Assembly: GCA_017481945.1 (NCBI GenBank)
Contig: JAFUOJ010000011.1
Location: 124,001-188,000, forward strand
Length of the DNA stretch: 64,000 nucleotides
Reading direction: 5' to 3'
DNA from: Parabacteroides sp.
GTDB taxonomy: Bacteria > Bacteroidota > Bacteroidia > Bacteroidales > Tannerellaceae
How positions within the stretch are numbered: the stretch's first letter is position 1; the number at the start of each line of letters is the position of its first letter. The position numbers and the translations under genes are program-made. Below are positions 37,829 through 63,315 of the stretch, in pieces. The notes beneath the pieces were generated by a model, which was not told the origin of the DNA, ran no database searches, and saw nothing but the letters and a program-made list of their open reading frames with translations.

Positions 37829-37915
37829 CTTACTCCTCGAGTAAGGAGCCGCTCGCTCCCCGAGTAAGCTACCCCCTTACTCGAGGAGTAAGCTCGTCTT
37901 TACTCGAGGAGTAAG
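37829..37915. repeat. Array of four ~17-bp palindromes, 23-bp period
   Basis: CTTACTCCTCGAGTAAG (37829-37845) is followed by a variant at 37852-37868 (CTCGCTCCCCGAGTAAG), then by the reverse-complement form CTTACTCGAGGAGTAAG at 37876-37892 and a near-copy at 37899-37915. Successive unit ends are 23, 24 and 23 bp apart; the extra base falls where orientation changes. Spacers of 6-7 bp are not conserved. The array lies between ispD and the promoter of the candidate RNA. No other gene or feature is visible in 37930-38013. Confidence 0.85.
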
Positions 37916-38013
37916 GTTCGGGCTGCTTTTTATGCTAAAAAATGTAAGATTAGGCAATCTCCTTTTTGTTTCATTAAGATTTATCCGTTACTGCTTTCTG
38001 TAGCTATTTTGTT

Positions 38014-38736
38014 CTATTTCCGTTGTGTAATCAAAACTTCTGCAACCAATAAATCCAGCGGTGTAGTAATTTTGATATTCTCACGGTTTCCGGAGACGGT
38101 ACTGACAGTATGTCCCATCGCTTCCACTACGGAGGCGTCATCCGTAAAGAACTCTGTATAAGGTTGCTGATAGGCTTCCCACAGCAAAGCCATGTCAAAC
38201 ACTTGCGGTGTTTGAACTGCGACATAGCGAGAACGATCAACCGGTCTGCTTCCCCCTTCGACTGTTTCACGAAGCGAATCAATCACGGGTATCACAGGTA
38301 TGGCGACTCCCGACACTTCAGCCTCTGCAAAACAATCACTTATCACCTCCGAAGTCACAAATGGGCGAACTCCGTCATGCACAGCCACGAGCAACCTCTC
38401 ATCGCCTCCCGTCCCATTTTTTTTCGCTCCGCAGCCGTCTCGCATTTCCTCGGCAAGGAATTGCAAACCGTTGCGCACCGAATGAAAACGCGTTGCGCCT
38501 CCGTTGACGACTCGGTGCGGGGCTTTACACCCAATCTCTTGGCAGAGCATTTTCCAATAGGGCTGATGATCTTCCGGAAGCACCAGAATCAATTCGGCCG
38601 AAGCGTCCCAGCGATAAAAAGCTTCCAACGTATGCATTAAAACCGGTTTCCCCTCCATTGGGATAAACTGTTTGGGCAAATCGCCTCCCATACGCAAACC
38701 GCGTCCTCCAGCAACAATTATAACTGCTCGTTTCAT
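38014..38736 (-). CDS. ispD: 2-C-methyl-D-erythritol 4-phosphate cytidylyltransferase
   Basis: IspD (240 residues) transfers CMP to methylerythritol phosphate in the non-mevalonate isoprenoid pathway. The CTP-binding loop IIVAGGRGLRMGGDLPKQF is at the N-terminus, VNGGATRFHSVRNGL near residue 80, VAVHDGVRPFV near 118 and DDASVVEAMGHTVSTVSGNRENIKITTPLDL at the end. All are typical. Its start overlaps the xseB stop by 4 bp (ATGA), so it is translationally coupled to xseB and belongs to a subtilase-xseA-xseB-ispD unit. Confidence 0.96.
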   Translation of the reverse strand: MKRAVIIVAGGRGLRMGGDLPKQFIPMEGKPVLMHTLEAFYRWDASAELILVLPEDHQPYWKMLCQEIGCKAPHRVVNGGATRFHSVRNGLQFLAEEMRDGCGAKKNGTGGDERLLVAVHDGVRPFVTSEVISDCFAEAEVSGVAIPVIPVIDSLRETVEGGSRPVDRSRYVAVQTPQVFDMALLWEAYQQPYTEFFTDDASVVEAMGHTVSTVSGNRENIKITTPLDLLVAEVLITQRK

Positions 38737-38933
38737 TCCTCTAATTCCTCCAATACTTTTTTTACCTCTTCATCTACTTTATAAAGCTTCTCTTTACATA
38801 GCTTTATAAGGCGTGTTGCCTCTTTCACCTTCTCTGAAAGAAGATCTACGTCTAAATCTCCATTTTCAATATCAGCGACTATCTTACGCAACTTATCGAC
38901 TGCTTCGTTATATGATTCTGTTTTCTTCGGCAT
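38733..38933 (-). CDS. xseB: Exodeoxyribonuclease VII small subunit
   Basis: The 66-residue helical protein (YNEAVDKLRKIVADIENGDLDVDLLSEKVKEATRLIKLCKEKL) matches XseB, which binds XseA to form exonuclease VII, a single-strand-specific exonuclease. Size and the IVxxxExGxLxxDxL pattern fit the family. It lies 23 bp after xseA and overlaps ispD. Confidence 0.95.
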   Translation of the reverse strand: MPKKTESYNEAVDKLRKIVADIENGDLDVDLLSEKVKEATRLIKLCKEKLYKVDEEVKKVLEELEE

Positions 38934-38956
38934 AATAGGACCTTATATATTTTGAA

Positions 38957-40327
38957 TTATGATTTATCTTTAATCTCTTCGGCAGACAACTGCACTTGTG
39001 TCACCGAAGCACGAATTTCTCCATCCGAGAAACGGGTTACAATCTCATCTCCGGACTGCAAATCAGTGGCTTGCTTCACTATCTTTCCTTCCTTTAGAGT
39101 TAAGCTATATCCCCGTTTCAAGAGATATTCCGGTGAAGCCATTTGGGCAAATTGTTCGGTCAGCTGAATGAAACGGTTCTGTTCGGCCAACCAAGTTTCC
39201 GTTCGGTTTTTCAAATGTAATTGCCAAGTATCTACCGTTGCCCGCTGTTGTTTCAAAAGCGAAGAGACCATCAATGGCAATTGCCCTCCCAAACGTTGCA
39301 ATAGCGAACGATTCCGCTCGATCCGGTTTAAAGCTAATGCCGGCAAACGGTTAGCCAACGTATGCAACTGATTCTTTTGTGCAGACAGAATCTCTGTAGC
39401 CAACAGGCTTACACTTTGTTGCAATGAATCCAATTCCCCGGCAACTTTATCCATCCGGGCAATCAGGAATTCCGCAACAGCCGTAGGCGTCTTCATCCGG
39501 GTATGTGCCACTAAATCCAAGATGGTATCGTCACGCTCATGACCAATCCCGGTAATAATCGGTAAAGGGAACTGGGCACAGTTTGCTGCCAACAGATAAG
39601 AATCAAAACTATTCAAATCGGACGTTGCCCCTCCTCCTCGGATGATTACCACCACATCAAAGCAATCAAGATGTTGATAGATTCGCTCCAAAGCAGCAAT
39701 CACAGATTCCTCCGTTCGCTCTCCCTGCATAAGAGCCGGAAATAACTTCGTATAGAAAAGATAACCCGCCGTATTATTAGCCAACTGATTCAGGAAGTCC
39801 TCGTATCCGGCAGCCGTAGGCGAAGTAATCACCGCTACTCGCTTAGGTAAAGTCGGGAAAGGTAATTCTTTATTTAATGTAAAGACTCCCTCCTCTTGTA
39901 ATTGCCGGATAATCTCCATACGTCTCCGAACCATATCCCCTAACGTGTAGGCCGGATCAATATCCAATACAGTCAAACTATATCCATACAGTTCGTGAAA
40001 CTCGACAGCGACCTTCACTAAAACCTTCAGCCCCGAAGCAAATTGTTGCCCCGTCTCCATCTCAAAATAGGGTTTCAGGAGACGGAAGGTCTTCGCCCAA
40101 ATAGAGCCTCGTGCTCGAGCAACCAACTGTCCGGTAACCGGATTTTTCTCGATAAACTCCAAATAGCAATGTCCGGAAGCTGCATTGGTACGCACATCAC
40201 TCATTTCTGCGCGAATCCAGCAAGTTTCCGGGAATGCGTCCAACAAGACATTCTTAATCCGATTATTCAGTTCAAGCAAGGAAAACTCCTGCCGATCCTG
40301 TCCGGCACTATTTAGATCGAGATTCAT
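38957..40327 (-). CDS. xseA: Exodeoxyribonuclease VII large subunit
   Basis: From ATG 40327 the protein has 456 residues. The N-terminal OB domain (FSLLELNNRIKNVLLDAFPETCWIRAEMSD) is followed by the catalytic region with KRVAVITSPTAAGYEDFLNQL near residue 140 and DVVVIIRGGGATSDLNSFDSYLLA...PIITGIGHERDDTILD near 230, then a long helical segment and the KRGYSLTLKEGK end typical of XseA. The start overlaps the end of the upstream subtilase gene by 20 bp, so the two are coupled. A reading to 40384 would extend the overlap without added homology. Confidence 0.95.
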   Translation of the reverse strand: MNLDLNSAGQDRQEFSLLELNNRIKNVLLDAFPETCWIRAEMSDVRTNAASGHCYLEFIEKNPVTGQLVARARGSIWAKTFRLLKPYFEMETGQQFASGLKVLVKVAVEFHELYGYSLTVLDIDPAYTLGDMVRRRMEIIRQLQEEGVFTLNKELPFPTLPKRVAVITSPTAAGYEDFLNQLANNTAGYLFYTKLFPALMQGERTEESVIAALERIYQHLDCFDVVVIIRGGGATSDLNSFDSYLLAANCAQFPLPIITGIGHERDDTILDLVAHTRMKTPTAVAEFLIARMDKVAGELDSLQQSVSLLATEILSAQKNQLHTLANRLPALALNRIERNRSLLQRLGGQLPLMVSSLLKQQRATVDTWQLHLKNRTETWLAEQNRFIQLTEQFAQMASPEYLLKRGYSLTLKEGKIVKQATDLQSGDEIVTRFSDGEIRASVTQVQLSAEEIKDKS

Positions 40328-41678
40328 ACTTTTTCCCCTTTTTATAGGCCTTATAGACATTGGGTATTCCGTATCCCAATTCAACGTTCGGACGTTTGTA
40401 CAGATGGGAAGAGCGACGCAACAGATCCATCACCTCCCGATTGGTCAATCCCGGAAGTGACTGCCAAAGACAAATACCCAATCCTGCCAAAATAGGAGTA
40501 GAAAAGGAGGTTCCACTGGCAAAACGTACATCTCCTCGCGAACCGATGACGCAACTGCTTGTACCTAAAGCCACGGCATCCGGTTTCACCCGTCGATCCG
40601 CAGTAAAGCCCATTGAGCTGAAGTTACTTCGTTTCTTTTCTTGCGTGATAGATCCGACTGTAAAAGCGCCGATTGCGTCTGCCGGGACAGTAATCTTTCT
40701 CCATTCGTTCCCTCCTTCGTTTCCGGCACTGCAAAAGACCAATATTCCTTTTTCCGAAGCCCGATTAGCCGCTTGACTAATAAGGGCATGTTTCCCCGTC
40801 AGAGCCTCATAACCATAAGAAAGTGATTCGTCATCAAAAGAAAAATAACCTAACGAAGAGGTAACAACATCTACCCCTACACTATCCGCATACTCAACAG
40901 CAGCCGTCCAATAGTCCTCTTCAATCGGGTATTCGGAAGCCCCATCCTCACTCTTTAACAATAAAAAAGAGGCATTAGGAGCCGTCCCTACCATAATCCC
41001 CGGTAGATTGGCAGCCAAACAGGACAAGACCTTTGTCCCGTGGTCATCATCCAGGAATACGCTCTCTCCCGGTGTTACAAAATTATAGGTTCCCAACAAA
41101 TGCAAAGAGTCAAAAGCTGCAATCCGGTCTACATGCTTAAAGCCAGCGTCAATGACAGCGACCTGCATACCTTCGCCTTGGAAACCGGCTTTATGCAGTT
41201 TCATCCCGTTCAACATTTTTATTTGTTTCTGAGCATGACCATATTTATCCGGTAGAGGCTCTTTTTCCGGATAAAGCTTTCCGGTTTCCTCTACCCTCTC
41301 CAGATTTTCTCTTTTGCCTTTCCAAACGTACTTCACTGAATCAACAATGTCCAGCTGTTCCAACTGTTTTGCGACCAAACTATCTGTACTCTCCATTACA
41401 ACCGTTGCAAACCATCGGCTCTGCACTATCGGCTTAGCACCGGTCTTTGACAACTGATTGATATAAGCCGGTGAAATAGGAAAGTCTTCTTGAGTCACTT
41501 CAATTGCCTGTTTGATCCTTCGTTCTATCGCTCTCTTAGAAAGATAAACCTCAGGATTCTCCACTCGATAACCAGCATTCCCTTTATCTTTCAAATAAAC
41601 ACGGAAACAATAATACTCATCGGCCCACAAACCAATAGGAAGGCAACATACCAACAATATGAACAGAATTCTACACAT
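40308..41678 (-). CDS. Exported subtilisin-family (S8) serine peptidase
   Basis: The 456-residue protein has a signal peptide (MCRILFILLVCCLPIGLWA) and a propeptide-like region to ~150. The catalytic triad is complete: D177 in VAVIDAGF, H213 in DDDHGTKV, S391 in ASGTSFSTP, with the oxyanion Asn in CSAGNEGG (N320). It is probably exported and processed in the envelope or beyond. The last residues overlap the start of xseA by 20 bp, an odd pairing of an exported protease with a DNA-repair nuclease in one transcript. Substrate unknown. Confidence 0.92.
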   Translation of the reverse strand: MCRILFILLVCCLPIGLWADEYYCFRVYLKDKGNAGYRVENPEVYLSKRAIERRIKQAIEVTQEDFPISPAYINQLSKTGAKPIVQSRWFATVVMESTDSLVAKQLEQLDIVDSVKYVWKGKRENLERVEETGKLYPEKEPLPDKYGHAQKQIKMLNGMKLHKAGFQGEGMQVAVIDAGFKHVDRIAAFDSLHLLGTYNFVTPGESVFLDDDHGTKVLSCLAANLPGIMVGTAPNASFLLLKSEDGASEYPIEEDYWTAAVEYADSVGVDVVTSSLGYFSFDDESLSYGYEALTGKHALISQAANRASEKGILVFCSAGNEGGNEWRKITVPADAIGAFTVGSITQEKKRSNFSSMGFTADRRVKPDAVALGTSSCVIGSRGDVRFASGTSFSTPILAGLGICLWQSLPGLTNREVMDLLRRSSHLYKRPNVELGYGIPNVYKAYKKGKKYESRSK

Positions 41679-41721
41679 CTTAAATCAGCTTTTTGCAAAA
41701 ATATAAATTGTACACTATAAA

Positions 41722-41759
41722 AAAAAGCCCGGCGACACAAGAGGGTCACCGAGCTTTTT
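41722..41759 (-). terminator. Terminator of the Lrp/AsnC regulator gene
   Basis: AAAAAGC (41722-41728) pairs with GCTTTTT (41753-41759), and CGG/CCG and GAC/GTC extend the stem with two mismatches. A T-run follows on the minus strand. Confidence 0.7.
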
Positions 41760-41774
41760 CAATTAAATATCCTA

Positions 41775-42245
41775 CTACTCAGAAAAGATATCGCAAATAG
41801 GAATTTCGCGCTTTACGCTCTGACGCAAAGAAATAAGCGTCTCGGTAGCTGTCACTCCGGGGATTTCCTGAATCTGAGTATTTAACAATTCCATCAAGTG
41901 TTCGTTATCTCTCGCGTACAACTTAATCAACATCGTGTACGGTCCTGTGGTAAAGTGGCATTCCACAATCTCTGGAATTTTTTCAAACTCTGGTACAACT
42001 TCTTTATACATAGAACCTCTTTCCAACTTTACGCCAATATATGTACATGTATTATAGCCTAAAATCTTCGGATTAATGTGGTAACCTGATCCAACAATCA
42101 CGTTCATTTCAATCATTCGTTGTACTCGCTGATGAATAGCAGCACGCGATACTCCGCATTCTTCTGCCACATCTTTAAAAGGAATTCGGGCATTCTTGGA
42201 AATAATATTCAAGATTTGCCGATCCAGCTTGTCTATCTTCTCCAT
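41775..42245 (-). CDS. Lrp/AsnC-family transcriptional regulator
   Basis: The 156-residue protein has an N-terminal winged helix (LDRQILNIISKNARIPFKDVAEECGVSRAAIHQRVQRMIEMNVI) and a C-terminal RAM/ligand domain (YIGVKLERGSMYKEVVPEFEKIPEIVECHFTTGPYTMLIKLYARDNEHLMELL...IPGVTATETLISLRQSVKREIPI). Such proteins form octamers and respond to amino acids or related small molecules. Its targets are not evident from neighbours. A -7 box TACTTTTG is present on the minus strand at 42281-42288, but the -33 is weak. Confidence 0.93.
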   Translation of the reverse strand: MEKIDKLDRQILNIISKNARIPFKDVAEECGVSRAAIHQRVQRMIEMNVIVGSGYHINPKILGYNTCTYIGVKLERGSMYKEVVPEFEKIPEIVECHFTTGPYTMLIKLYARDNEHLMELLNTQIQEIPGVTATETLISLRQSVKREIPICDIFSE

Positions 42246-42346
42246 CGTTTACTTATTTTCCATTTTTAGATTTAATGTATCAAAAGTATATATTTAATTT
42301 TAATATTGTATCATTCTGAAAGGGAAAAGTGAGGAATAAACAATAA

Positions 42347-42387
42347 AAGTGGGCGAAATATGCTATCAAACATATTTTCGCCCACTT
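42347..42387 (-). terminator. Terminator of the FKBP pair
   Basis: AAGTGGGCGAAATATG (42347-42362) pairs with 42371-42387 with one bulged base. On the minus strand a TTTTATTG tail follows. Confidence 0.85.
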
Positions 42388-42412
42388 CCAATTCAATCAA
42401 TATATCTGCTTT

Positions 42413-43132
42413 TTATTTCTTTTTTTCGTCTTTAACGATTTCAAGCAACTCGATTTCGAACTTCAATGTGCTATTCGGTTTAATGTCAGCACCAGCACCA
42501 CGTTCGCCATAACCTAATTCAGAAGGAATCCAAACGATATATTTAGAACCAACTGGCATTAGCTGAAGAACTTCTGTCCAACCTTTGATTACTTGGCCAA
42601 CACCAAATTCAGCAGGTTCGCCACGATCTACAGAACTATCAAACTTTGTACCATTTAATAATGTACCTGTATAGTGAACTTTTACGCGATCTTCTGCAGT
42701 CGGTTTAGCTCCTTTACCTTCTGTAACTACCTGATATTGCAAACCGCTTTCAGTTGTAATCACACCGCTCTTTGTTTTATTCTCAGCCAAGAACTTTTCG
42801 CCTTCTTCTTTATTCTTTTCAGCGTCTCTTGTTGAAGCCTGCATAAAATAATTCTGCATAAAAGCCTGAGCTTCTTGCGGAGTCATTTTCATAGCAGCAC
42901 TATCACCCTTAATTGCCTGTACGAAACCTGCAATCAAGTCATCCACGTTAGCAGGATCACCCGGTAATGTCTTCAAATTTTCTTTATAACCGGCACCTGT
43001 AGTAATACCAATCGCATAGCTCACGCTATCTGCACCAGTTTTCAAAGAAGCACTCTTGTGTGAACCACCTCCACAAGAGGTCATGCCCATAGCTACAATT
43101 ACTGTAGCAACCAATACACTAATTTTTTTCAT
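42413..43132 (-). CDS. FKBP-type peptidyl-prolyl isomerase, lipoprotein
   Basis: The 239-residue protein has a lipoprotein signal (VIVAMGMTSC, Cys near residue 20). An FKBP N-terminal dimerisation-type region (DSVSYAIGITTGAGYKENL...MTPQEAQAFMQNYFMQ) precedes the FKBP catalytic domain (GAKPTAEDRVKVHYTGTLLNGTKFDSSVDRGEPAEFGVGQVIKGWTEVLQLMPVGSKY...PNSTLKFEIELLEIV). The arrangement matches FkpA/Mip-like folding helpers of the envelope. It lies 15 bp after a paralogue and shares its terminator. Confidence 0.93.
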   Translation of the reverse strand: MKKISVLVATVIVAMGMTSCGGGSHKSASLKTGADSVSYAIGITTGAGYKENLKTLPGDPANVDDLIAGFVQAIKGDSAAMKMTPQEAQAFMQNYFMQASTRDAEKNKEEGEKFLAENKTKSGVITTESGLQYQVVTEGKGAKPTAEDRVKVHYTGTLLNGTKFDSSVDRGEPAEFGVGQVIKGWTEVLQLMPVGSKYIVWIPSELGYGERGAGADIKPNSTLKFEIELLEIVKDEKKK

Positions 43133-43147
43133 CTTTCTATATTATAT

Positions 43148-43735
43148 TTATTTTACTATGTCTAATAATTCTACATCAAAGATCAATGTACTATTCGGTT
43201 CAATCGCGTCACCAGCTCCATGTTCACCATAAGCCAATTCAGAAGGGATAAAAAGACGCCATTTTGAGCCAACCGGCATTAACTGCAAAGCTTCCACCCA
43301 ACCCGGAATCACTTGTGACACACCAAATACTGCTGGTTGACCACGCTGTACAGAACTATCAAAGACAGTACCATTAATCAATGTTCCATGATAATGACAC
43401 TTTACTTTATCTGTGGCAGTTGGTTTTGCACCTTCTCCTTTCTGCAAAACTTGATATTGTAAACCACTTGGCAAAGTAACGACTCCTGCTTTTCCTTTAT
43501 TAATAGTCAGGAACTCTTCTCCGGCTTTCTTATTCAGTTCTAACTTTTGCTTCTGAAGATTCATAAAGAATTCATTGATTATTTGCTTAGCTTCATCATA
43601 GCTAATTACAGGCTGAGCACCACTCAACACATCATTTACTCCTTTTACAAAATCCTCAACTTGGAGATTGTTAATACCTGAATTCTGGAAATTATTTCCG
43701 ATACTTAGACCCAGTGCGTAACTAATTTTATCCAT
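43148..43735 (-). CDS. FKBP-type peptidyl-prolyl isomerase without signal peptide
   Basis: From ATG 43735 the protein has 195 residues, starting MDKISYALGLSIGNNFQNSGI, with no signal peptide. The FkpA-type N-domain and the FKBP domain (VKCHYHGTLINGTVFDSSVQRGQPAVFGVSQVIPGWVEALQLMPVGSKWRLFIPSELAYGEHGAG) mirror the downstream lipoprotein gene closely, so the pair looks like a tandem duplication with one copy cytoplasmic and one exported. A reading from 43768 passes through the -7 box and is rejected. Confidence 0.9.
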   Translation of the reverse strand: MDKISYALGLSIGNNFQNSGINNLQVEDFVKGVNDVLSGAQPVISYDEAKQIINEFFMNLQKQKLELNKKAGEEFLTINKGKAGVVTLPSGLQYQVLQKGEGAKPTATDKVKCHYHGTLINGTVFDSSVQRGQPAVFGVSQVIPGWVEALQLMPVGSKWRLFIPSELAYGEHGAGDAIEPNSTLIFDVELLDIVK

Positions 43736-43765
43736 TCTTTTTTCTTTTCTACTAATAATGAGCCA

Positions 43766-43824
43766 CAAAAGTAATGCTTTTCACTACATAAACTGCAAAC
43801 AACAACACTTTTTTACTACTTTTG
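43766..43824. promoter_or_regulatory. Divergent -7 boxes between the FKBP pair and the DUF4886 gene
   Basis: TACTTTTG occurs on the minus strand (43766-43773, for the FKBP genes; TTTG lies 22 bp upstream) and on the plus strand (43817-43824, for the gene at 43888). Both match TAnnTTTG exactly. The plus-strand -33 box is not clear. Confidence 0.6.
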
Positions 43825-43887
43825 CAACACTTATGTAAAGTATAACAGGTTAAAAGATATATTTGTTGACAATTTAAATTTCAAAAA

Positions 43888-44796: not shown

Positions 44797-44822
44797 AATC
44801 CTTTAAACATATCCTCTGCCGT

Positions 44823-45719: not shown

Positions 45720-45729
45720 TCTTACAAAC

Positions 45730-45768
45730 AAAAATGGGCTGTCTTCTTTATAAGGACAGCCCATTTTT
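45730..45768. terminator. Bidirectional terminator between the GDPD gene and sppA
   Basis: AAAAATGGGCTGTC (45730-45743) pairs perfectly with GACAGCCCATTTTT (45755-45768) with T-runs in both directions. Confidence 0.92.
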
Positions 45769-45781
45769 TATAGTTCTATTA

Positions 45782-50642: not shown

Positions 50643-50727
50643 GAAAGTTACCGCTTTCTAAGGGCGAAAGCGGTAACTTTCGGGTCATGAAAGCGGTAAG
50701 TTTCGTCACCCGAAAGCGGTAACTTTC
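50643..50727. repeat. Array of four 16-bp palindromes, exact 23-bp period
   Basis: GAAAGTTACCGCTTTC (50643-50658) is followed by GAAAGCGGTAACTTTC (50666-50681), GAAAGCGGTAAGTTTC (50689-50704) and GAAAGCGGTAACTTTC (50712-50727). The first unit is the reverse complement of the second and fourth. Spacers are 7 bp and differ. TTTTGTTTC just left and GAAACAAAA just right (from 50735) form an outer inverted pair. The array occupies the 356-bp divergent gap between the BlaI-type gene and kdgK, upstream of both; the rest of the gap shows only a -7-like TATTTTTG at 50814-50821 for kdgK. Confidence 0.88.
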
Positions 50728-54182: not shown

Positions 54183-54190
54183 TATCTTTG
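54183..54190 (+). promoter_or_regulatory. Possible -7 box for the HU-like gene
   Basis: TATCTTTG matches TAnnTTTG. No TTTG lies at the right distance upstream. If real, the leader would be about 220 bases and would contain the whole 23-bp-period palindrome array. Confidence 0.4.
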
Positions 54191-54238: not shown

Positions 54239-54346
54239 CGACATACCGATGTCCCCCCTGACGACATACCGATGTCGGCGGGTGCTTCATACCGATGTCA
54301 CCGGGGTCGACATACCGATGTCGGCAGCAGCGACATACCGATGTCG
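54239..54346. repeat. Array of five 16-bp hairpin-forming units, exact 23-bp period
   Basis: CGACATACCGATGTCG or a close variant starts at 54239, 54262, 54285, 54308 and 54331, each step exactly 23 bp. The arms CGACAT/ATGTCG enclose a constant ACCG centre. Unit 1 ends in C instead of G and unit 3 has a changed left arm. The 7-bp spacers (for example GCGGGTG, CCGGGGT, GCAGCAG) are G+C-rich and unrelated. The array fills the middle of the 400-bp gap between uxaC and the HU-like gene; nothing else but the terminator and -7 box is visible there. Confidence 0.92.
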
Positions 54347-54417: not shown

Positions 54418-54912
54418 ATGGCTATTTCTTATAAGTTAGTTCAGAAGGGAAATCCCTCCAAGAAGGAGGATCCGAAGAAGTGGTACGCTGTACCTAAGAG
54501 TTCTACCGCACAGACTGGCAAGCAGATGACCAAGGCTGCCACCGAAAACACGACCGTTGCTCCTATTGAATTAGAAGCGGCTCTTGATTTATTGGCCAAA
54601 TATGTACCCAAGCAGATTGTGCAGGGGCATACGGTACATATCCCCGGGGTCGGTTATTTACGTCTATCGTTCAAGAGCAAAGGGGTGGAAAACATTGAGG
54701 ACTTCAACGCCGGCGAAATGATCTACGACGCAAAACTGGTTTTCAAACCGGACGAAGAGTTGCGCAGTGCTATCCTTGAGAATCTGCAGTACGAGGAGGG
54801 CGGTGTCCTTGCCGAAGGCATTGAGTATGCCAACCGGAAGTCCTACCTGCAGCTCGTCAATCCGGGTGGCTCAGGCAGCACCGGTGAGGACGACGCGCCG
54901 GATGAGCTTTAA
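54418..54912 (+). CDS. HU-type DNA-binding protein of the long Bacteroidetes class
   Basis: The 164-residue protein starts MAISYKLVQKGNPSKKEDPKKWYAVPKSS and has an HU/IHF-like core (IELEAALDLLAKYVPKQIVQGHTVHIPGVGYLRLSFKSKGVENIEDFNAGEMIYDAKLVFKPDEELRSAIL). A short Gly/Ser/Asp-rich tail ends it. Bacteroidetes have many such HU-HIG proteins beside classical HU; binding preferences are mostly unknown. The ATG at 54418 is chosen because the frame upstream runs through the palindrome array with no similarity. It has a strong terminator and is convergent with the SprE gene. Confidence 0.88.
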   Translation: MAISYKLVQKGNPSKKEDPKKWYAVPKSSTAQTGKQMTKAATENTTVAPIELEAALDLLAKYVPKQIVQGHTVHIPGVGYLRLSFKSKGVENIEDFNAGEMIYDAKLVFKPDEELRSAILENLQYEEGGVLAEGIEYANRKSYLQLVNPGGSGSTGEDDAPDEL

Positions 54913-54914: not shown

Positions 54915-54949
54915 AAAAAGGCTGGGATTCAAGGGATCCCAGCCTTTTT
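54915..54949. terminator. Bidirectional terminator between the HU-like gene and sprE
   Basis: AAAAAGGCTGGGAT (54915-54928) pairs with ATCCCAGCCTTTTT (54936-54949), with T-runs both ways. Confidence 0.92.
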
Positions 54950-54956
54950 TGTATGC

Positions 54957-57900: not shown

Positions 57901-58385
57901 TGACGGGCGATATAGGAAAAGGTAGCCGAAGCCTGCAAAAAGTCTGCGTTATAGAACTGTGCCTGTCCCATCAGCAACCAACATTTCTTTAGGAAAGGGT
58001 TGTATTCCTCTTGCTCTTGCCAAGCACGTTGTTTCGGGTCATTACGCCATCCGGCTTTCTTAGGCGGCTTTGCCTTAATGGAGTGTAGTTTAATGGCTTT
58101 GTTGCTCTTTTCAATGGCTCGGTCGAAGGGACCGCCGGTGTTTTGCTTCTCTTTGGGTTGGGCACTGATCGGGTACATCAGAATCATGTCAGAATAACTC
58201 TCTTTGTAGCCGTTCTGCATGGAGAGTAGTGCCTCATCAAAAGAGGTCTTTCCGTTGAAGTAAATATTATAGCGGGAAGTAAAGGCATGATAAAATCGGC
58301 TCGCCTTCGTATTCTTCTTCGTACTGCAAGACCAGAACAGAGAGACTGCCAACAATAGAATTATATAATAGAAACCTTTCTTCAT
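54957..58385 (-). CDS. SprE/PorW-type TPR lipoprotein of type IX secretion
   Basis: From ATG 58385 (1142 residues) the protein has a lipoprotein signal (LLAVSLFWSC) followed by KASRFYHAFTSRYNIYFNGKTSFDEALLSMQNGY, the characteristic opening of SprE/PorW proteins. TPR-type repeats fill about 130-420 and 590-720 (for example PYFKTAIKAEKNRRQRSRMKYLLGQIY; YNMAMIYKDKLEDIPLAIEAFEELERRFPQTKY). The last ~160 residues are a Lys/Glu/Arg/Ala-rich helical region with repeated KAKEKARKQKER units, likely a coiled coil. SprE/PorW is needed for type IX secretion in gliding and periodontal Bacteroidetes; that this organism secretes by this route is an inference. It follows the metal permease gene by 70 bp. Confidence 0.88.
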   Translation of the reverse strand: MKKGFYYIILLLAVSLFWSCSTKKNTKASRFYHAFTSRYNIYFNGKTSFDEALLSMQNGYKESYSDMILMYPISAQPKEKQNTGGPFDRAIEKSNKAIKLHSIKAKPPKKAGWRNDPKQRAWQEQEEYNPFLKKCWLLMGQAQFYNADFLQASATFSYIARHYAHDEEVVAEARLWQARCYSEMDWFYEAEDILGKLNTNGIPKKNLNQYAAVYADYLVKNKQFEEAVPYFKTAIKAEKNRRQRSRMKYLLGQIYTELEQNGLAYQMFGQVIKANPPYELEFAARIRQTEVFTGGNYQKVVKKLQRMAKSEKNKDLLDQVYYALGNLYLSREDTLNAIKNYELGVEKSTQNGLDKAICQIKLGDLYFQQRNYVQAQPNFSGALAGIQKEYKDYERVSKLSAVLDELVVHVEAVHLQDSLQTLAKMPEAERLAVIDKIIEQVKKEEEEAKKLAEKEAYLAEQEAKGTGIDRPGTETGGIVLPTAGGGSGFYFYNPQTVAQGKTAFQRKWGRRTLEDHWRRRKKEMSTFNENTEEQTQQAVEGENVAQADQAAESLESGLEPVAADDPKTREYYIQQLPMTPEDVEASNLIIEDGLYNMAMIYKDKLEDIPLAIEAFEELERRFPQTKYLLESYYQVYLMALRAGNETVATTYKNKLMTAFPESDYTVAISDPNYAYNIRMMDVVQDSIYQQTYSSYLAEDTTAVRRNYHYVSEKYPLADLMPKFMFLDALTYVQAGDAEGFKAALKALVEKYPSADVTELAGEMLKGVLRGRMLVQGGIKGMTWNLRFGLGEDGTLSAADSARVFTAEPNTPYRMLLMFPTGTIDRNQLLFAVAAYNFANFMVKEFDLSFEEAGPMSMLTIKGFYSVDEALHYYKMIYGADGYGTSLDKNVAILPISDDNYETLMRGKTLDEYILFFQENFGEAAPELAARWKARMTAEEIKEEEAKAETETATPEPEEAPAEEVTLPPARPAADTLAVPKIETTTPVEQPKQLTLKEIKELRDKEAAEEAARKEEARKAFEAQQKADKELQERAAKENEELLKRQKAEEEALLKAKADREKQLEQDRKEKAKQTAADRKAKLKAREELRKQKERDYKARLKAKEKARKQKEREYKAKLKAKEKARKEALKAKEAAAKAKRRR

Positions 58386-58455
58386 GAAATCATCTGCCAC
58401 ATGCCCATCCCTACGTAGGAATAACCTTGTTTATCCCCTTGTGCATATTTTTATT

Positions 58456-59259
58456 TTAACGCTCACGTACTGCTTTTATTGCTTTCATTATTAAAAAGAA
58501 AAGAACCAGTACCAAAATGATAAACGCTCCAGAAGGCACATTCAGATAGTAAGAGAGAACCAATCCGGAGACACAGCCCAAGAACCCCAGTAGCATACTT
58601 CCCCAGATAATCTTTTTGAAGTCTGAAGTAAACAGGTTTATGGAAATCTGCGGTAGGGTCAGCAGACTCATCAAAAGCATAATGCCGACCATACGAATCG
58701 ACAGCACAATAGTCACCGCTACCAAGCAAATCATCGTATATTCTATCAACCGTACCGGAAGCCTTTGCGTCAGTGCGAAATCCCGATCAAAAGCGACATA
58801 AACAATCTCCCGCAAAAAGAATCCGAAAAGAAGGATGAGGAGGAGGGTCAAGATAGCCATCCCGATCAAATCACCGGTAGAGATCGTCAATATGTTTCCA
58901 AACAGATAGGCCGAAAGATTAGGAGCATACCCCGGAGTCAAGAAGATAAAAATAACTCCCAATGCCATCCCTAACGACCAGACTCCTGCAATCGCAGAAT
59001 CCTCCCGAATGTTTTGTGTCCGACTCATCCACTCTACTCCCAACGCAGAGAGTACGGAAAAAACCATCGCCATCAGTACCGGATTCATCCCCAAATAGAA
59101 CCCCAGACCTAACCCGCCAAAAGAGGCATGCGTAATCCCGCCGCTAATAAAAACCAAACGTCGTGAAACAATATAGGTCCCCACAATACCGCAAGCAATG
59201 GCGGTAAGCAGACTTCCTAATAAAGCATGTTGAAAAAAACTATATTGCAGTAAATCCAT
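58456..59259 (-). CDS. ABC-3-type metal ABC transporter permease
   Basis: The 267-residue protein has about eight membrane segments and the ABC-3 (ZnuB/MntB) family pattern: FFQHALLGSLLTAIACGIVGTYIVSRRLVFISGGITHASFGGLGLGFYLG, with GGITHASFGG as the conserved loop near residue 38, and MLLMSLLTLPQIS later. These permeases import Zn, Mn or Fe with an ATPase and a solute-binding protein; neither partner gene is within the window. The 5' region carries a 22-bp-period repeat array. SprE follows downstream. Confidence 0.92.
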   Translation of the reverse strand: MDLLQYSFFQHALLGSLLTAIACGIVGTYIVSRRLVFISGGITHASFGGLGLGFYLGMNPVLMAMVFSVLSALGVEWMSRTQNIREDSAIAGVWSLGMALGVIFIFLTPGYAPNLSAYLFGNILTISTGDLIGMAILTLLLILLFGFFLREIVYVAFDRDFALTQRLPVRLIEYTMICLVAVTIVLSIRMVGIMLLMSLLTLPQISINLFTSDFKKIIWGSMLLGFLGCVSGLVLSYYLNVPSGAFIILVLVLFFLIMKAIKAVRER

Positions 59260-59292
59260 TCTCTATCTCTTCTTAATCTCTATTTTTTTCGG

Positions 59293-59352
59293 TCGGCAGG
59301 GAAATAGTATTCCCTCGGCAGGAAACAAGAATTTCCTCGGCAGGGAATTTTC
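59293..59352. repeat. Array of three units, exact 22-bp period
   Basis: TCGGCAGG starts at 59293, 59315 and 59337, each followed by arms that pair: GGGAA/TTCCC in unit 1, GGAAA/TTTCC in unit 2 and a shortened GGGAA/TTTTCC in unit 3. The array lies between the 3' end of the gene at 59361 and the start of the metal permease gene. Confidence 0.8.
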
Positions 59353-59360
59353 CTCCAATG

Positions 59361-59786
59361 CTAATGGATTCGCCGTTCACCGACAATCAAAAAAGCTTCA
59401 TCCTTCAATGCGTCCGGCAAATTGATCTCACGCAACTGAAGACTCCGTAACCATCCGGCAACCTCTACCTCCTGCAACGTGTAGAGTACCTCTCGAAACT
59501 CATTCTCCGCCTCCTCGTCATAGGCGTCCGAAGCTATGCCCCGAAACCGATCCAGCTCCTCGTCATCATAATATTCGATTCCTTTACTCACAGCAGCTAA
59601 CAGGCTATCCCGTTCGCAGGTCTCATGCTGTCCGCAGCATTCTTCTTCTGCAGTCAGCTCTTTCGGTTCAGGAATCTCTGTGATCTCTCCGCGCTCCAAC
59701 ATCTGTTGCAGCTTCCGGTTCCGGAAATATCCAGCTACAGCGGCGACAAGTCCTAAAGCAATTATACCTATTATAATATACCACAT
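59361..59786 (-). CDS. Membrane-anchored acidic protein downstream of aroA, function unknown
   Basis: The start at 59786 gives 141 residues: an N-terminal membrane segment (MWYIIIGIIALGLVAAVAGYF), then an acidic soluble part with a cysteine cluster (ECCGQHETCERDSL) and an FREVLYTLQEVEVAGWLRSLQLREINLPDALKDE block near the end. CC-x5-C could hold metal, but this is speculation. ATG 59786 lies 5 bp after the aroA stop, so the genes are co-transcribed; a reading from 59837 would overlap aroA by 46 bp with no support. Confidence 0.7.
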   Translation of the reverse strand: MWYIIIGIIALGLVAAVAGYFRNRKLQQMLERGEITEIPEPKELTAEEECCGQHETCERDSLLAAVSKGIEYYDDEELDRFRGIASDAYDEEAENEFREVLYTLQEVEVAGWLRSLQLREINLPDALKDEAFLIVGERRIH

Positions 59787-59791
59787 GATAC

Positions 59792-61018
59792 TTAATAAGA
59801 GGTTATAGAATATCCAGCCGCCTTGAGATCTTCCCAAAAATGCGGGTAACTCTTACTTACAACTTCGGGATCAGCAATCTCTATTCCTTCCGGGCGAACC
59901 AACGCAGCCGGGGCAAAAGCCATAGCCATACGGTGATCTTCATAGGTAGCAATCACCGGATGTTCTTCCGGTTCACAGCGTTCACCATTCCACTCCAGAA
60001 TGCTATCATTACTATCCGTCAGCAGATACCCTAACTTACGAAGCTCTGTTTTCAATGCCTCAATACGATCCGTCTCCTTAATCTTCAGGCTTTGCAATCC
60101 CGTAAAGCGGAAAGGCGTATTCATTAACACGCAAGCCACCACAAATGTTTGTGCCAAGTCCGGTTCATTCACGAAGTTATAGTTCAACTTCTTAACGCTG
60201 TTACCATTACGTCTGAGAAGTACTCCCCGTTCAGTGAAAGTAGTACCGACTCCCAATTGAGCAAAGAGTTTGGCTCCTGCAGAATCTCCTTGCAAACTAT
60301 TCTTAAATAATCCCAACAACTCAATCTCTGCGTTTCGCGACAACGCCATCATAGCATACCAGTAGGAAGCGGCGCTCCAATCTGACTCCACCGTGAAAGG
60401 GATTGGGTTGTACTCTTGCGGACGGACTTTAATGGTAGAGCCGTTCCACTCTGCTTTTACAGCATATTGCGCCATCAATTGCAGTGTAAGATTGATATAA
60501 GGCTTTGAGATGATATTTCCCTCCAAATGCAAAGTCAATCCGTTCTCCATCAGCGGAGCAATCATCAACAATGCAGATATATACTGCGAACTAACTCCGC
60601 CGGCCAACGAAATCTCGCCACCCTGCAAAGCACTTCCGAAGATTCGCAAAGGAGGATACCCCTCTTTCTCCATATACTCGACCTTTGCCCCCAAAGCATT
60701 GAGCGCGTCTACCAAGATCTTTATCGGACGGTTCTTCATACGTTCCGTACCGGTGATTGTCCACTCGCCTACTACCTTAGACAAAAAAGCTGTCAAGAAC
60801 CGCATAGCAGTTCCCGCAGCTTTTATATCAAAATCACGTTCGTTTGAGTTCAGAGCCTTAACCATCACTTCCGTATCGTCACAGTCCGACAGATTCTGAA
60901 TATCATACGGACTATAACTCAATGCGTTTAGGATTAACGCACGATTACAGATACTCTTTGAAGCAGGAAGCTTAACAGAAGCTTTCAATAAGGCTGGAGC
61001 TGTTATTCTATATTTCAT
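59792..61018 (-). CDS. aroA: 3-phosphoshikimate 1-carboxyvinyltransferase (EPSP synthase)
   Basis: The 408-residue enzyme joins shikimate 3-phosphate and PEP in aromatic amino-acid synthesis. LPASKSICNRALILNALS near residue 18 contains the K-x4-N-R phosphate block; GTAMRFLTAFLS binds PEP; RMKNRPIKILVDALNALGA, SSQYISALLMIAPL, KETDRIEALKTELRKLG and YEDHRMAMAFAPAAL are further family blocks in correct order. The protein is somewhat shorter than enterobacterial AroA (~427), usual for Bacteroidetes. It has its own promoter and is followed by the acidic membrane protein gene. Confidence 0.96.
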   Translation of the reverse strand: MKYRITAPALLKASVKLPASKSICNRALILNALSYSPYDIQNLSDCDDTEVMVKALNSNERDFDIKAAGTAMRFLTAFLSKVVGEWTITGTERMKNRPIKILVDALNALGAKVEYMEKEGYPPLRIFGSALQGGEISLAGGVSSQYISALLMIAPLMENGLTLHLEGNIISKPYINLTLQLMAQYAVKAEWNGSTIKVRPQEYNPIPFTVESDWSAASYWYAMMALSRNAEIELLGLFKNSLQGDSAGAKLFAQLGVGTTFTERGVLLRRNGNSVKKLNYNFVNEPDLAQTFVVACVLMNTPFRFTGLQSLKIKETDRIEALKTELRKLGYLLTDSNDSILEWNGERCEPEEHPVIATYEDHRMAMAFAPAALVRPEGIEIADPEVVSKSYPHFWEDLKAAGYSITSY

Positions 61019-61043
61019 TATAATTGCACAATTATACGGAGTG

Positions 61044-61074
61044 CAAAAGTACAGATTTTATGCTTTCCAATAAA
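61044..61074 (-). promoter_or_regulatory. Promoter of aroA
   Basis: On the minus strand, TTTA (61071-61074) and TACTTTTG (61044-61051) are exactly 19 bp apart. The leader before the ATG at 61018 is about 20 bases. Confidence 0.75.
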
Positions 61075-61086
61075 GCCCCTCGCTCT

Positions 61087-62070
61087 CTATTTCTTCAAAT
61101 AAGGCTTCCCTTTCTTCCAAAAGACCTCCTCTTGCGTGATAAACCAAGTCTTTCCATGATCATTATTGCCCTGATAAAAGAGGTAAGTCCGTCCGTCTAC
61201 ATCTGTGAAGATATGAGGATGTCCGGATTCACTGGAGTTCCATTCCCCCGGCTTACCGTTAGGCAAGAAAGGCTCCTCCGAGAGGCGTTTCCAGACGATG
61301 CCATCCCGGCTTTCCGCCACTCCGACCTGTTGGGGAGCATTATTGTAGGCACCGGCATAGAACATAAACAGTTTCTTTCCTTTCTTGGCGATAGAAGCAC
61401 CTTCGATACACTGTCCTTCCCAAGGATAAACCGGATAGAGGATCGATGAATCGGCAGCCTGTACCCAATCCTCCCGATTAAAAGTCGTATTTCCCGGAGC
61501 AACAGCCACTCCCTGCATTTGGATCTTATAGTCCTTGTCGCGAGTCGCAAAATAGAGGAAATAGCGTCCTTCAAATTCGCACACCTCCGCGTCTATCGCT
61601 CTTCCACAATTCCAATCACCTGTAGGAGAGAAAATCGGATTCGTCGCGTTCCGTTCAAAATGAATACCATCTTCAGATACGGCATGACAAATCGCATCCT
61701 TTTTCCCATTCCCATACGTCTGATAGAACAGATGAACCTTGCCATCCTTCACCAAAGCACCGGGGGCACAAAGTCCCTTCTTCTCATATTCAGCATTCGG
61801 AGCAGGCGTGATCTCCCCCACCTTAGTCCAATTCACCAAATCGCTGCTGGCTGCAATACCTATATTCCAGCCGGAATTAGGATCACCCTTCTTAGGCGGT
61901 ATCGAATGATACATCAAATAACGTCCCTTGAAATTCACCACGTGCGGGTCTTTCGCATAAGGGACTCCCACTCGAGAGGTATCCCCGTACATCATCCGTA
62001 CCTTCTGGGCTCCCATCCTCCCCGGGAGTAAAATCAAAGCAAGAAACAGCAATAAAGTCTTTATTCGCAT
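61087..62070 (-). CDS. Exported five-bladed beta-propeller glycosidase (GH43-like)
   Basis: The 327-residue protein has a signal peptide (MRIKTLLLFLALILLPGRMGAQ) and the blade repeats of GH43/GH32/GH117-type hydrolases: VPYAKDPHVVNFKGRYLMYHSIPP near residue 40 carries the first acidic residue, GLCAPGALVKDGKVHLFYQTYG the next blade, and CGRAIDAEVCEFEGRYFLYFATRD, QCIEGASIAKKGKKLFMFYAG and SGHPHIFTDVDGRTYLFYQGN follow. The general acid Glu is probably in CIEGAS. Substrate is not clear; such exported enzymes attack plant or host glycans. It lies 13 bp after the Rpn-type gene on the same strand. Confidence 0.85.
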   Translation of the reverse strand: MRIKTLLLFLALILLPGRMGAQKVRMMYGDTSRVGVPYAKDPHVVNFKGRYLMYHSIPPKKGDPNSGWNIGIAASSDLVNWTKVGEITPAPNAEYEKKGLCAPGALVKDGKVHLFYQTYGNGKKDAICHAVSEDGIHFERNATNPIFSPTGDWNCGRAIDAEVCEFEGRYFLYFATRDKDYKIQMQGVAVAPGNTTFNREDWVQAADSSILYPVYPWEGQCIEGASIAKKGKKLFMFYAGAYNNAPQQVGVAESRDGIVWKRLSEEPFLPNGKPGEWNSSESGHPHIFTDVDGRTYLFYQGNNDHGKTWFITQEEVFWKKGKPYLKK

Positions 62071-62083
62071 GGTATTTAAGTTT

Positions 62084-62977
62084 TTATTTTGAGCCTAACA
62101 AAGTCATAACCTCCTCTTCCGACAGCTTGGCTATCTTGGCAATTGAAGAAATGTCCATCCCCTGTTCACGCATATTTTGAATCATAAGACGAATACCCTC
62201 GAATTTACCTTCCGCTCGTCCTTTGGCTTCCCCCTCTTCGAGTCCTTCTGCCTTACCTTCTTCAAGCCCTTGGTGATAAAAGGTGTACATCGTATTGTTA
62301 TAATCCCTATAGTGCTTCAATGCCTGGTCGTATTCCCAACGTTCTTCCTCACTCAAAGTAGCCACGTTTGCAACCTCCAGGATCTTCCCGAAAACGGATT
62401 TCTCTACATAAAAAGGATAATTCTCAAATGTTTCCATATTCTTCAATAAATAAATCCAACGATCAAAATCGGTCTGACACTCCTCCACCGTCTTGTTAAA
62501 ATGGGGCAAACTCAAATAAATCTGACGCATTTTGTTGTTCACCACCTCTCCCGTTTCACGGTCTGCCAATACAACATCCGTACGAAACTTCGTCAACGAC
62601 GCTATCTTAAAATTCAAAAAGAAGATGCCATATACCGGACAAATCTCATATCTCCAAGCGGTACCTTTCAGCCCCTGCTCGTCTATCATTCGGCATAGAT
62701 AATACAACGCACGATCCAGGAAATAACCCTGATACTGGTTTTGTATCTCTACGATGAACTGTGTGCCGTCCTCATCCTCACATAGAATGTCGTAAATCAC
62801 CACCTTATGATTCAAAGACCTCGGAACCTTCTCCTTATTCATCAGGTTGATACGCTTCACATGGCGCTCATCTCCCAAAATCACTCGTATCAGTTCCGTC
62901 AGCAACTCTTTACTCACTTCCCTACCGAACAGATGTTTAAACCCCACGTCGGTAAAGGGATTCATATACTTTCCCAT
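62084..62977 (-). CDS. Rpn-type PD-(D/E)XK nuclease / transposase-related protein
   Basis: The 297-residue protein begins MGKYMNPFTDVGFKHLFGREVSKELLTELIRVILGD, the signature of the Rpn/YhgA (PD-(D/E)XK nuclease family transposase) group. The catalytic core is visible: D63 in YDILCEDEDG and E77-x-Q79 in FIVEIQNQYQGYFLDRALYY, a complete site. The end has a glutamate-rich repeat (EGKAEGLEEGEAKGRAEGKFEG), also typical, and a short helical C-terminus. Rpn proteins promote recA-independent recombination and some act in phage defence; this copy has no visible terminal repeats and is not a typical insertion sequence. It lies beside the largest palindrome array. Confidence 0.9.
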   Translation of the reverse strand: MGKYMNPFTDVGFKHLFGREVSKELLTELIRVILGDERHVKRINLMNKEKVPRSLNHKVVIYDILCEDEDGTQFIVEIQNQYQGYFLDRALYYLCRMIDEQGLKGTAWRYEICPVYGIFFLNFKIASLTKFRTDVVLADRETGEVVNNKMRQIYLSLPHFNKTVEECQTDFDRWIYLLKNMETFENYPFYVEKSVFGKILEVANVATLSEEERWEYDQALKHYRDYNNTMYTFYHQGLEEGKAEGLEEGEAKGRAEGKFEGIRLMIQNMREQGMDISSIAKIAKLSEEEVMTLLGSK

Positions 62978-63105
62978 AGTTTTTAGGATTTAGTTAATAC
63001 TGTTATTTGTTTGAAAGCAAAGATAAGAGTTTATTCAGAACATCATCGCCATTTCAGAGGGAATTTTCCAGTCCGGACAAAGTTTCAGGGAGAGGCTTAG
63101 TGGTC

Positions 63106-63315
63106 GTGACTTCCCAACGCGGACGGTCGCAACCTTCGCGACCGGTAAGGTATTACTTCTTATTCCGTACGGAATATACTCGTATTCCACTCGGAATAAT
63201 TTACAATTCCACTCGGAATATAATTTTATTCCGTACGGAATATTTCTTTATTCCACGTGGAATTATAAAAAAGACCTTACCAGTCGCGGAAGTAGCGACC
63301 GGTAAGGTTGGGAAG
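63106..63315. repeat. Five 14-bp palindromes at exact 22-bp period, flanked by hairpins
   Basis: ATTCC-N4-GGAAT units start at 63162, 63184, 63206, 63228 and 63250, exactly 22 bp apart, with 8-bp AT-rich spacers. Centres are GTAC, ACTC, ACTC, GTAC and ACGT, so three of five are perfect palindromes. Flanking hairpins share one motif: GGTCGC/GCGACC on the left (63124-63145) and ACCTTACC-GTCGC/GCGAC-GGTAAGGT on the right (63274-63308). CTTCCCAA (left) and TTGGGAAG (right) bracket the whole element. It fills most of the 470-bp gap between the Rpn-type gene and the protease gene. Confidence 0.9.

Follow-up and report, generated by a model that had tools for sequence, protein, structure and literature searches.

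What are the five intergenic arrays of short palindromes in a 64,000-nucleotide stretch of a Parabacteroides genome (the window), and which protein might they serve? The original prediction gave them a common geometry, and we found all five, with 3-5 units at steps of 22-24 bp.

37829..37915, no strand: array 1, four units CTTACTC-N3-GAGTAAG at steps of 23, 24 and 23 bp
50643..50727, no strand: array 2, four units GAAAGCGGTAACTTTC, the first inverted, period 23 bp
54240..54345, no strand: array 3, five units GACAT-ACCG-ATGTC, period 23 bp
54418..54912, plus strand: HU-HIG gene, 164 amino acids, HU superfamily (PF18291, E=9.1e-21)
59293..59356, no strand: array 4, three copies of TTTCC-TCGGCA-GGAAA type by eye, period 22 bp
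63137..63151, plus strand: CGCGACCGGTAAGGT, left inverted flank of array 5, seen in the sequence
63161..63264, no strand: array 5, five units ATTCC-N4-GGAAT, period 22 bp

The first unit of array 1 is inverted relative to the third and fourth, and the second is degenerate. Array 2 occupies the divergent gap between a BlaI-type repressor gene and a KDG kinase gene. Array 3, in which the left arm of the third unit is damaged, is bordered by the inverted flanks CCTTAAAAC and GTTTTTAGG and lies 72 bp upstream of the HU-HIG gene; 49 nt before it, TATCTTTG (54183..54190, plus strand) resembles the Bacteroidetes -7 promoter element, TAnnTTTG, and is a candidate for that role. Array 4, between a gene ending at 59361 and an ABC-3 transporter gene, was missed by the window detectors and was counted by eye and via orthologues; the array is real, but its palindrome is better read as listed above than as first described. 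The units of array 5 mostly extend to TATTCC...GGAATA, and CGCGACCGGTAAGGT recurs at 63274-63288 (inverted) and 63295-63308 (direct).

Arrays of this kind extend well beyond the window. At a score threshold of at least 33, we counted 18 arrays of at least three palindromic units at 22-23 bp in 464 kb of the same genome, and 24 in 632 kb of the genus. Other genera of the family had 18 in 397 kb (0, 0 and 0 in shuffles of this last set), and other families a single one in 244 kb. The stretches were not all random samples: the 464 kb comprise the window and contigs chosen for the unit of array 3 or for adjoining the window, the 32 genus stretches include 12 orthologues of the window and 2 selected by GACAT matches, and one locus (L246) is on a contig picked for its HU gene. 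Taking all scores, the own-genome count was 22; control periods gave 4 and 0, and shuffles 2, 0 and 3. Pairs of similar palindromes in the 464 kb peaked at spacings of 22 bp (9 versus 0.6 after shuffling in 100-base blocks) and 23 bp (15 versus 0.2), with echoes at 42, 44 and 46 bp. Arrays of a separate 41/42-bp class form long stems, in which the outer arms seem by eye to co-vary (L019:10440).

Across 42 arrays with 214 units, the units (14-18 bp) were 0.80 identical and the spacers (4-9 bp) 0.47, and 149 of 172 steps measured 22 or 23 bp. This agrees with the expectation of near-invariant units and variable spacers within a locus, although the identity and step figures are partly built in, because the detector favours similar units and steps near 22 and 44. 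The idea that all units face one side of the DNA fails on arithmetic: at 10.5 bp per turn, 22-23 bp corresponds to 2.1-2.2 turns, so that successive units rotate by about 35-70 degrees.

The units are not, as had been supposed, wholly unrelated across loci. By eye, about a dozen sequence versions, here called dialects, occur in the 464 kb, and those searched were found at 2-14 places each, the commonest, GAAACT-N3-AGTTTC, as 27 units at 13-14 places. The unit of array 3 forms further arrays at C3:41728-41833 and C7:7440-7568; an array related to array 2 lies at C3:212242-212326, with one spacer-like 7-mer common to both; and a copy of array 1 on contig C13 aligns with it by eye from end to end, including the degenerate unit. 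Arrays have been copied between loci with their spacers in order, some with their flanks. In addition, even-centred units have a loose common core, nAY-N4-RTn. An A at position 4 occurs in 21 of 34 HU-linked arrays and 23 of 38 other arrays, in a test that treats the 72 deduplicated arrays as independent although their independence is not full.

The strongest new result is that the arrays adjoin genes of the HU superfamily (PF18291) more often than they adjoin control genes. We examined the top HU-HIG match in each of the 30 best-scoring genomes, from 51 with a match among 59 searched (13 genera). An array lay within 420 bp at 17 of these 30 loci, upstream at 12 and after the stop codon at 5, with none elsewhere in the flanks; the remaining 13 had no array at the threshold used (at least 33). 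Upstream arrays accompanied 12 of 21 long HU forms, while 5 of 9 short forms had an array just 3' of the stop codon. Adjacent arrays were found at 2 of 30 control loci for TetR (3 arrays elsewhere) and at 2 of 27 for KDG kinase (1 elsewhere), and the difference between 17/30 and the pooled 4/57 is significant (Fisher 6.6e-7). An earlier, looser look at HU loci of 28 relatives had shown an array beside the gene at only about a dozen.

Within the genus, all 18 homologues of the window HU protein at E<=1e-15, itself included, have an upstream array: a script run with laxer settings and no matched control detected 17, and one was seen by eye; the G007 orthologue (71% identity) has an array of GACATCCCGATGTC. 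In the genome of the window, an array stands beside 11 of 17 intact HU genes above the cut-off (one by eye, and one scan at the laxer setting) and is absent from the other 6, where a weak AT-rich call after L090 was excluded. In the own-genome sample, a script test placed arrays beside 3 of 5 HU genes, compared with 35 of 370 genes; the window gene was added by hand as the fourth, since its ORF call began within array 3. The linkage recurs in another genus: in 22 stretches (440 kb) of G075, searched at the threshold of at least 33, we found six arrays, of which one is upstream of an HU-HIG gene, three lie elsewhere in that gene's dialect and two are different. Parabacteroides distasonis TSDC17.2-1.1 has an array of five 23-bp repeats 15 nt after the HU gene UNS60_RS08480. 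This locus (L298) was the one with an array among six inspected of nine HU matches on plasmids or phages; two others from P. distasonis and those from B. finegoldii, Ph. massiliensis and a phage scaffold did not.

In several cases, one dialect is common to an HU-linked array and to distant arrays. Besides array 3, the copy of array 1 on C13 lies about 320-410 bp upstream of an HU-HIG gene (L089), and the unit of array 5 is also found upstream of an HU-DNA_bdg gene on contig C11 (L095/L119). Palindromes related to CGCGACCGGTAAGGT occur at L023:16336 and, by eye, about 20 nt after another HU-DNA_bdg gene, L118 on C41. In this genome (G000), dialects a, c and e recur at other loci, as does n by eye, while among the HU-linked dialects f, g, j, k and the one at L117 had no second locus in the own-genome sequence examined. 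Conversely, the GAAACT-N3-AGTTTC, array 2 and array 4 dialects had no HU neighbour in the sequence examined of this 83% complete genome, and G002 and G014 have GACAT-type arrays but no homologue of the window HU protein at E<=1e-15. A proposed pairing of the AAACAY-N4-RTGTTT dialect of G014 with a short HU gene failed at both genes tried.

Among the 18 homologues, protein similarity and array similarity were correlated (Spearman 0.30; 1 of 5000 permutations as high). Five pairs exceed 75% identity; array words are clearly shared in three of them (0.51-0.87) and weakly in the other two (0.07 and 0.10), and ten within-genome paralogue pairs share only 0 to 0.07; a dialect set by the genome alone is therefore not favoured. 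A profile of 39 relatives matched HU (2.1e-10) and IHF (3.9e-10) in the PDB. The arm-tip proline of HU and IHF is not conserved in the linked proteins, which leaves no ground for assuming the classical kink, and a reading of CA steps as proline-kink sites was dropped for this reason. HU-HIG genes have multiplied strongly in the family, with up to 25 matches at E<=1e-15 in one genome.

At one fixed position the units turn over. In the gap orthologous to that of array 4, G013, G014 and G002 have full arrays, G023 and G021 have one or two palindromes (by eye) and G012 has none. Across the seven genomes compared, this gap mostly keeps the place of its array while the units change. At another locus, three relatives differ in copy number by approximately whole 22-bp units. 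Many more loci, and unit turnover with a fixed period, were the support named by the original prediction, and both were observed; base-for-base conservation of the units was not seen at the gap compared, and Rfam has no match in window positions 37000-64000. That every array lies 5' of a gene holds in the window but not in the wider sample, where 41 arrays fell into 22 co-directional, 9 divergent and 6 convergent gaps, with 4 on ORF calls, against a background of 160, 72 and 32; the 6 include the mis-called array 3, leaving about 5 of 41 truly convergent. Because the gap types follow the background, a strict 5' operator is rejected. A conserved operator of the target gene also fails for KDG kinase, with an upstream array at 1 of 27 loci: the other 26 gaps are array-free by eye, including that of G023, which has a repressor-like neighbour.

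We consider it reasonably probable that the arrays are multi-site platforms for paralogue-specific HU-type proteins, dispersed as whole cassettes. The binders would be an expanded set of HU-superfamily proteins, HU-HIG (PF18291) and HU-DNA_bdg (PF14848), and we propose the product of 54418..54912 as the putative binder of the array 3 dialect. Each binding paralogue would recognize its own dialect, two inverted half-sites mostly built around the loose nAY-N4-RTn core, and the 22-23-bp repeat would let neighbouring dimers pack side by side, possibly with cooperativity. An array next to the paralogue's own gene could permit autoregulation, and further arrays of the same dialect, dispersed in intergenic gaps as cassettes of about 85-150 bp, might repress, block or fold nearby DNA when bound. 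The dialect would drift along with its HU protein, and selection for binding together with unequal exchange may keep the units of an array alike. Some arrays lie inside likely operons (gltB/gltD-like and bioA/bioF-like) or in convergent gaps; such places are odd for a simple operator and count against this account. The three explanations offered originally are thus partly supported as a set: operator arrays for related regulators fit best and now have a concrete candidate in the HU-HIG and HU-DNA_bdg proteins; nucleoid-protein platforms are partly right, as these candidates belong to the HU/IHF superfamily; and a copying mechanism gains some support from whole arrays copied between loci, some with flanks, and from the likeness of units within an array.

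A rather unlikely alternative is that the arrays are mobile or self-copying, REP/BIME- or MITE-like, with an enzyme that copies cassettes into gaps, often right after stop codons, and HU genes as passengers or helpers. Copies that keep their spacer order, the 13-14 places of one dialect and the KDG kinase gap, occupied at 1 of 27 loci and array-free in G023 beside the same neighbour, would all fit such movement. So would the outer flanks, which over 60 arrays are inverted with a mean of 8.52 of 16 positions against 6.51 for cross pairs (0 of 2000 permutations; in G075 clearly so in two of four arrays, at 14 of 16, and more weakly in the others, at 11 and 9), and the 15 of 22 co-directional gaps in which the array overlaps the upstream stop codon or begins no more than 35 nt from it. 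However, a search of the 83% complete own genome gave no match to a Y1 (HUH) transposase (PF01797), and neither the HU adjacency (17 of 30 loci, with none elsewhere in the flanks) nor the common core is explained by a passenger role. The nearness of many arrays to stop codons, within 35 nt, would also suit RNA hairpins that terminate or stabilise transcripts or regulate from the 5'/3' UTR, as would the A/T-tract borders of several arrays and the long stems and seemingly co-changing outer arms of the 41/42-bp class. We think this improbable for the 22/23-bp class given the arm changes: with 9 of the 214 units set aside as too different, 234 changes were one-sided and double changes at paired positions numbered 14 against 14.0 under independence, although 10 of the 14 were complementary, above the one third expected. 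The 9 of 41 arrays in divergent gaps and the lack of an Rfam match in 37000-64000 also argue against hairpins. Least probable are neutral tandem palindromes made regular by replication slippage and quasi-palindrome correction; these would account for copy numbers that vary by about whole units at one locus and for units alike within arrays, but not for spacers that diverge (0.47) while units stay alike (0.80; figures partly built in), nor for the HU adjacency, the common core and the family-wide period.

Known systems share some of these features. REP/BIME-RAYT elements are likewise short intergenic palindromes, clustered and dispersed, and a cognate gene stands beside some copies there too; their units carry a terminal tag, GTAG or CGTC, on one side (PMC3733652). 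The arrays described here differ in having about a dozen dialects in 464 kb rather than one abundant palindrome family, in their 22/23-bp period and in their link to an HU-type DNA-binding protein, and identity with RAYT/REP is rejected because the 83% complete own genome gave no Y1 transposase match. The BrickBuilt MITE of Porphyromonas gingivalis, a species of Bacteroidales, consists of 23-nt tandem repeats between genes in 19 copies, with mostly conserved positions, variable repeat number, mention of 22-, 23- and 41-nt repeats, units without spacers, a leader and tail, and IS5-like ends (PMC4596501). Our arrays resemble it in their period (149 of 172 steps) and intergenic position (4 of 41 on ORF calls), but combine a palindromic unit with a spacer that varies, contain few units, come in many dialects, are linked to HU genes and, by inspection of dialect a and G075, have flanks that differ. 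CRISPR arrays, with their cas genes, have longer repeats, at 24-48 bp with unique spacers of similar length, compared to units of 14-18 bp and spacers of 4-9 bp here. In operator arrays beside autoregulated DNA-binding genes, and in parS/parC-type clusters beside par genes, inverted half-sites are repeated next to the gene of their binder, with further copies elsewhere. Adjacency to a putative binder gene above controls and the recurrence of sites elsewhere in the genome are common to both; the putative binder of the HU superfamily, the many paralogue-specific versions and the arrays downstream of genes are not. IHF, TF1 and other sequence-selective proteins belong to the same superfamily as the linked genes, but the array-linked proteins do not conserve the arm-tip proline of HU and IHF, and the sites of the former are not known to be short palindromes strictly repeated in tandem. 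Our search of the open literature found no description of HU-linked palindrome arrays.

Taken together, palindrome runs in gut bacteria of the Parabacteroides type often adjoin HU-like genes, and this adjacency points to many protein-site pairs. As a more speculative extension, which we hold to be possible but doubtful, each HU paralogue and its array family might form a co-diverging lock-and-key pair, REP-like and transposase-free, selfish or domesticated, whose mobile cassettes provide many parallel, mutually blind HU 'channels' that rewire expression or chromosome folding across the family. We know of no assigned DNA targets for HU-HIG proteins, and a computable link between paralogue and array would predict targets for many HU-HIG genes in gut commensals such as Parabacteroides distasonis. 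If the link is true, the family would offer a natural series of HU-type proteins whose specificity shifts in step with that of their sites, and with it a direct test of how HU proteins recognize sequence.

All five intergenic arrays of the original prediction, runs of evenly spaced palindromic units with variable spacers between them, were present in the window sequence:

37829-37915, array 1
50643-50727, array 2
54240-54345, array 3
54418-54912 (+), gene for an HU-superfamily protein of the HU-HIG type, 3' of array 3
59293-59356, array 4
63161-63264, array 5

Across 464 kb of the same genome, distances between similar palindromes peaked sharply at 22 bp (9 pairs) and 23 bp (15 pairs; 0.6 and 0.2 in shuffled sequence), with echoes at 42-46 bp, and the genus set, 632 kb drawn from other species, gave 27 pairs at 22 bp and 11 at 23 bp (shuffles 0.2 and 0.4). 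Counting arrays of all detector scores, we found 22 in the own genome (two other period ranges 4 and 0; shuffles 2, 0 and 3), 39 in the genus set (6 and 5; 1, 3 and 2) and 7 of low score in 244 kb from other families of the order (3 and 3; 2, 1 and 0). At a score of at least 33 these counts became 18, 24 and 1, and 397 kb from other genera of the family yielded 18 (shuffles 0, 0 and 0), the stretches behind all array counts having been chosen partly non-randomly.

The gene 3' of array 3 encodes an HU-HIG protein (PF18291, E=9.1e-21), and we examined the association of arrays with such genes. The own-genome set comprised 17 HU genes, 13 with intact PF18291 and four with PF14848 matches above the cut-off, leaving out two matches with internal stops and one below the cut-off. 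An array lay within about 450 bp of 11 of the 17 (L080, L082, L084 at a laxer setting, L086, L087, L088, L089, L116, L117, L118 by eye, and L119) and of none of the other six (L079, L081, L083, L085, L090 and L091). The unit of window array 1 is that found beside an HU gene on contig C13, where a second copy of the entire array, degenerate unit included, was seen by eye, and the unit of array 5 is that beside an HU gene on contig C11. All 18 matches to the window HU protein at E<=1e-15 (itself counted; 12 of 38 genus genomes) had an upstream array, 17 detected by script at the laxer setting and one by eye. In a matched test using the best HU-HIG match in each of 30 family genomes, an array lay upstream of 12 of 21 long forms and after the stop of five of nine short forms, with none elsewhere in the flanks of the 30 loci, compared to 2/30 TetR and 2/27 KDG-kinase control loci (Fisher 6.6e-7). 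P. distasonis TSDC17.2-1.1, whose contigs were drawn from a plasmid collection, had four arrays in three 50-kb stretches; five 23-bp units began 15 nt 3' of the stop of the HU gene UNS60_RS08480, and no array was found at two HU genes that lie among amidase or glucosaminidase genes. Arrays were absent from HU genes preceding amidase or glucosaminidase genes at L079, L083 and L307 (neighbours assigned by eye) and at L299, L300 and L301 (annotated), which suggests that HU genes form two functional classes.

We additionally sampled G075, a genome of another genus, through 22 stretches totalling 440 kb, with two stretches centred on the choice of HU genes. This sequence contained six arrays. One lay upstream of an HU-HIG gene, and three at other places shared its dialect, or palindrome unit type (TTTCYAYA-N2-TRTRGAAA type); the remaining two were of a different, A/T-rich, 21-bp kind, and the second HU gene lacked an array. 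Two of the four same-dialect arrays had clear inverted-repeat flanks near ATCCTTTATTTTTCTT, which were weaker in the other two. Among the genus matches to the window HU protein, arrays were clearly alike in three of five close orthologue pairs and weakly alike in two, and between paralogues within one genome they were unlike in ten pairs.

Other results cut against a pairing of arrays with HU genes. In the sequence examined, no HU neighbour was found for window arrays 2 and 4 or for the GAAACT-N3-AGTTTC dialect, which accounts for 27 units at 13-14 places (backward control 2), and five HU-linked own-genome dialects (f, g, j, k and that of L117) had no second place. Arrays of the GACAT type occurred in G002 and G014, two genomes in which the window HU protein has no close homologue, and neither of two short HU genes checked in G014 had such an array. 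Some arrays lay inside likely operons or between convergent genes. Furthermore, the arm-tip proline typical of HU/IHF was not conserved in these HU-type proteins.

Arrays also appear at dispersed sites and differ among relatives. The GACAT-N4-ATGTC unit of array 3 formed arrays at three places in the own genome, those on C3 and C7 having similar spacers in the same order (by eye). GACAT-type arrays were additionally seen in two probable operons, between gltB/gltD-like genes in G002 (L114:6382-6510; gltB by Pfam) and between bioA/bioF-like genes in G014 (L063; by eye). The array-4 gap carried 22-bp arrays in the own genome, G013, G014 and G002, one or two palindromes in G023 and G021, and none in G012; its units differed among genomes (TTTCC-TCGGCA-GGAAA, GTTTCATGCCTATGAAAC, TCCCATGCCGATGGGA and others), with a TTTCCCGGCAGGAAA-like first unit still discernible in several. 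Array 2 was present upstream at one of 27 KDG-kinase loci, and in G023 the KDG-kinase locus kept a repressor-like neighbour with no array in the gap. At one locus, copy number differed among three close relatives by approximately whole 22-bp units. Across 60 arrays, the inverted-repeat match between left and right flanks was higher within an array than between different arrays (8.52/16 vs 6.51/16; 0 of 2000 permutations). No Y1 transposase was found in the own-genome assembly (2.79 Mb, 83% complete).

Inverted GCGACCGGTAAGGT elements enclose array 5 (window 63137-63308) and are related to palindromes at L023:16336 and directly 3' of the HU-DNA_bdg gene at L118. Genes for PD-(D/E)XK nuclease family transposases adjoin array 5 (window 62084-62977) and lie near the array-bearing P. 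distasonis HU gene (L298:1546-2211). An unusually long array, scoring 174 and spanning nearly 300 bp, was found upstream of a TetR-type gene in G092 (L266, -532 to -239).

Each unit consists of two half-sites in inverted orientation, each roughly 4-7 bp long and separated from the other by a few bases. Within 42 arrays (214 units), identity was 0.80 for units and 0.47 for spacers, and 33 held a single exact period, figures that the detector itself favours. Arm changes were mainly one-sided (234 of 1230 cells); double changes numbered 14, with 14.0 expected for independent half-sites, and 10 of these were complementary. The centre was even in 72 of 86 distinct array consensuses; 44 of these 72 had A as the fourth base from the centre, with a pyrimidine next inwards in 39, and this core is common to HU-linked (21/34) and other arrays (23/38). 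A second class with a 41-42-bp period and longer stems was observed at L019:10440-10620, L018:18030-18171 and 18262-18359, and L232:8164-8432; its outer arms seem to vary jointly, more like RNA or DNA hairpins. Repeats of 41 nt are also mentioned for P. gingivalis in PMC4596501.

The nearest published relatives found for the arrays are REP/BIME elements (PMC3733652) and BrickBuilt, a 23-nt repeat element described in P. gingivalis (PMC4596501), one copy of which adjoins a PF00216 DNA-binding gene according to a table in the latter. The accessible parts of the open literature searched yielded no description of HU-linked, dialect-forming palindrome arrays.

The simplest account of these results is that HU paralogues bind their own palindrome arrays. 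Each HU-superfamily paralogue would recognize its own palindrome type in a multi-site array, with one array beside the gene that encodes it and further arrays distributed as cassettes, in which the whole array is copied. We infer that HU proteins bind these arrays, that binding may be cooperative and that it may serve regulation.
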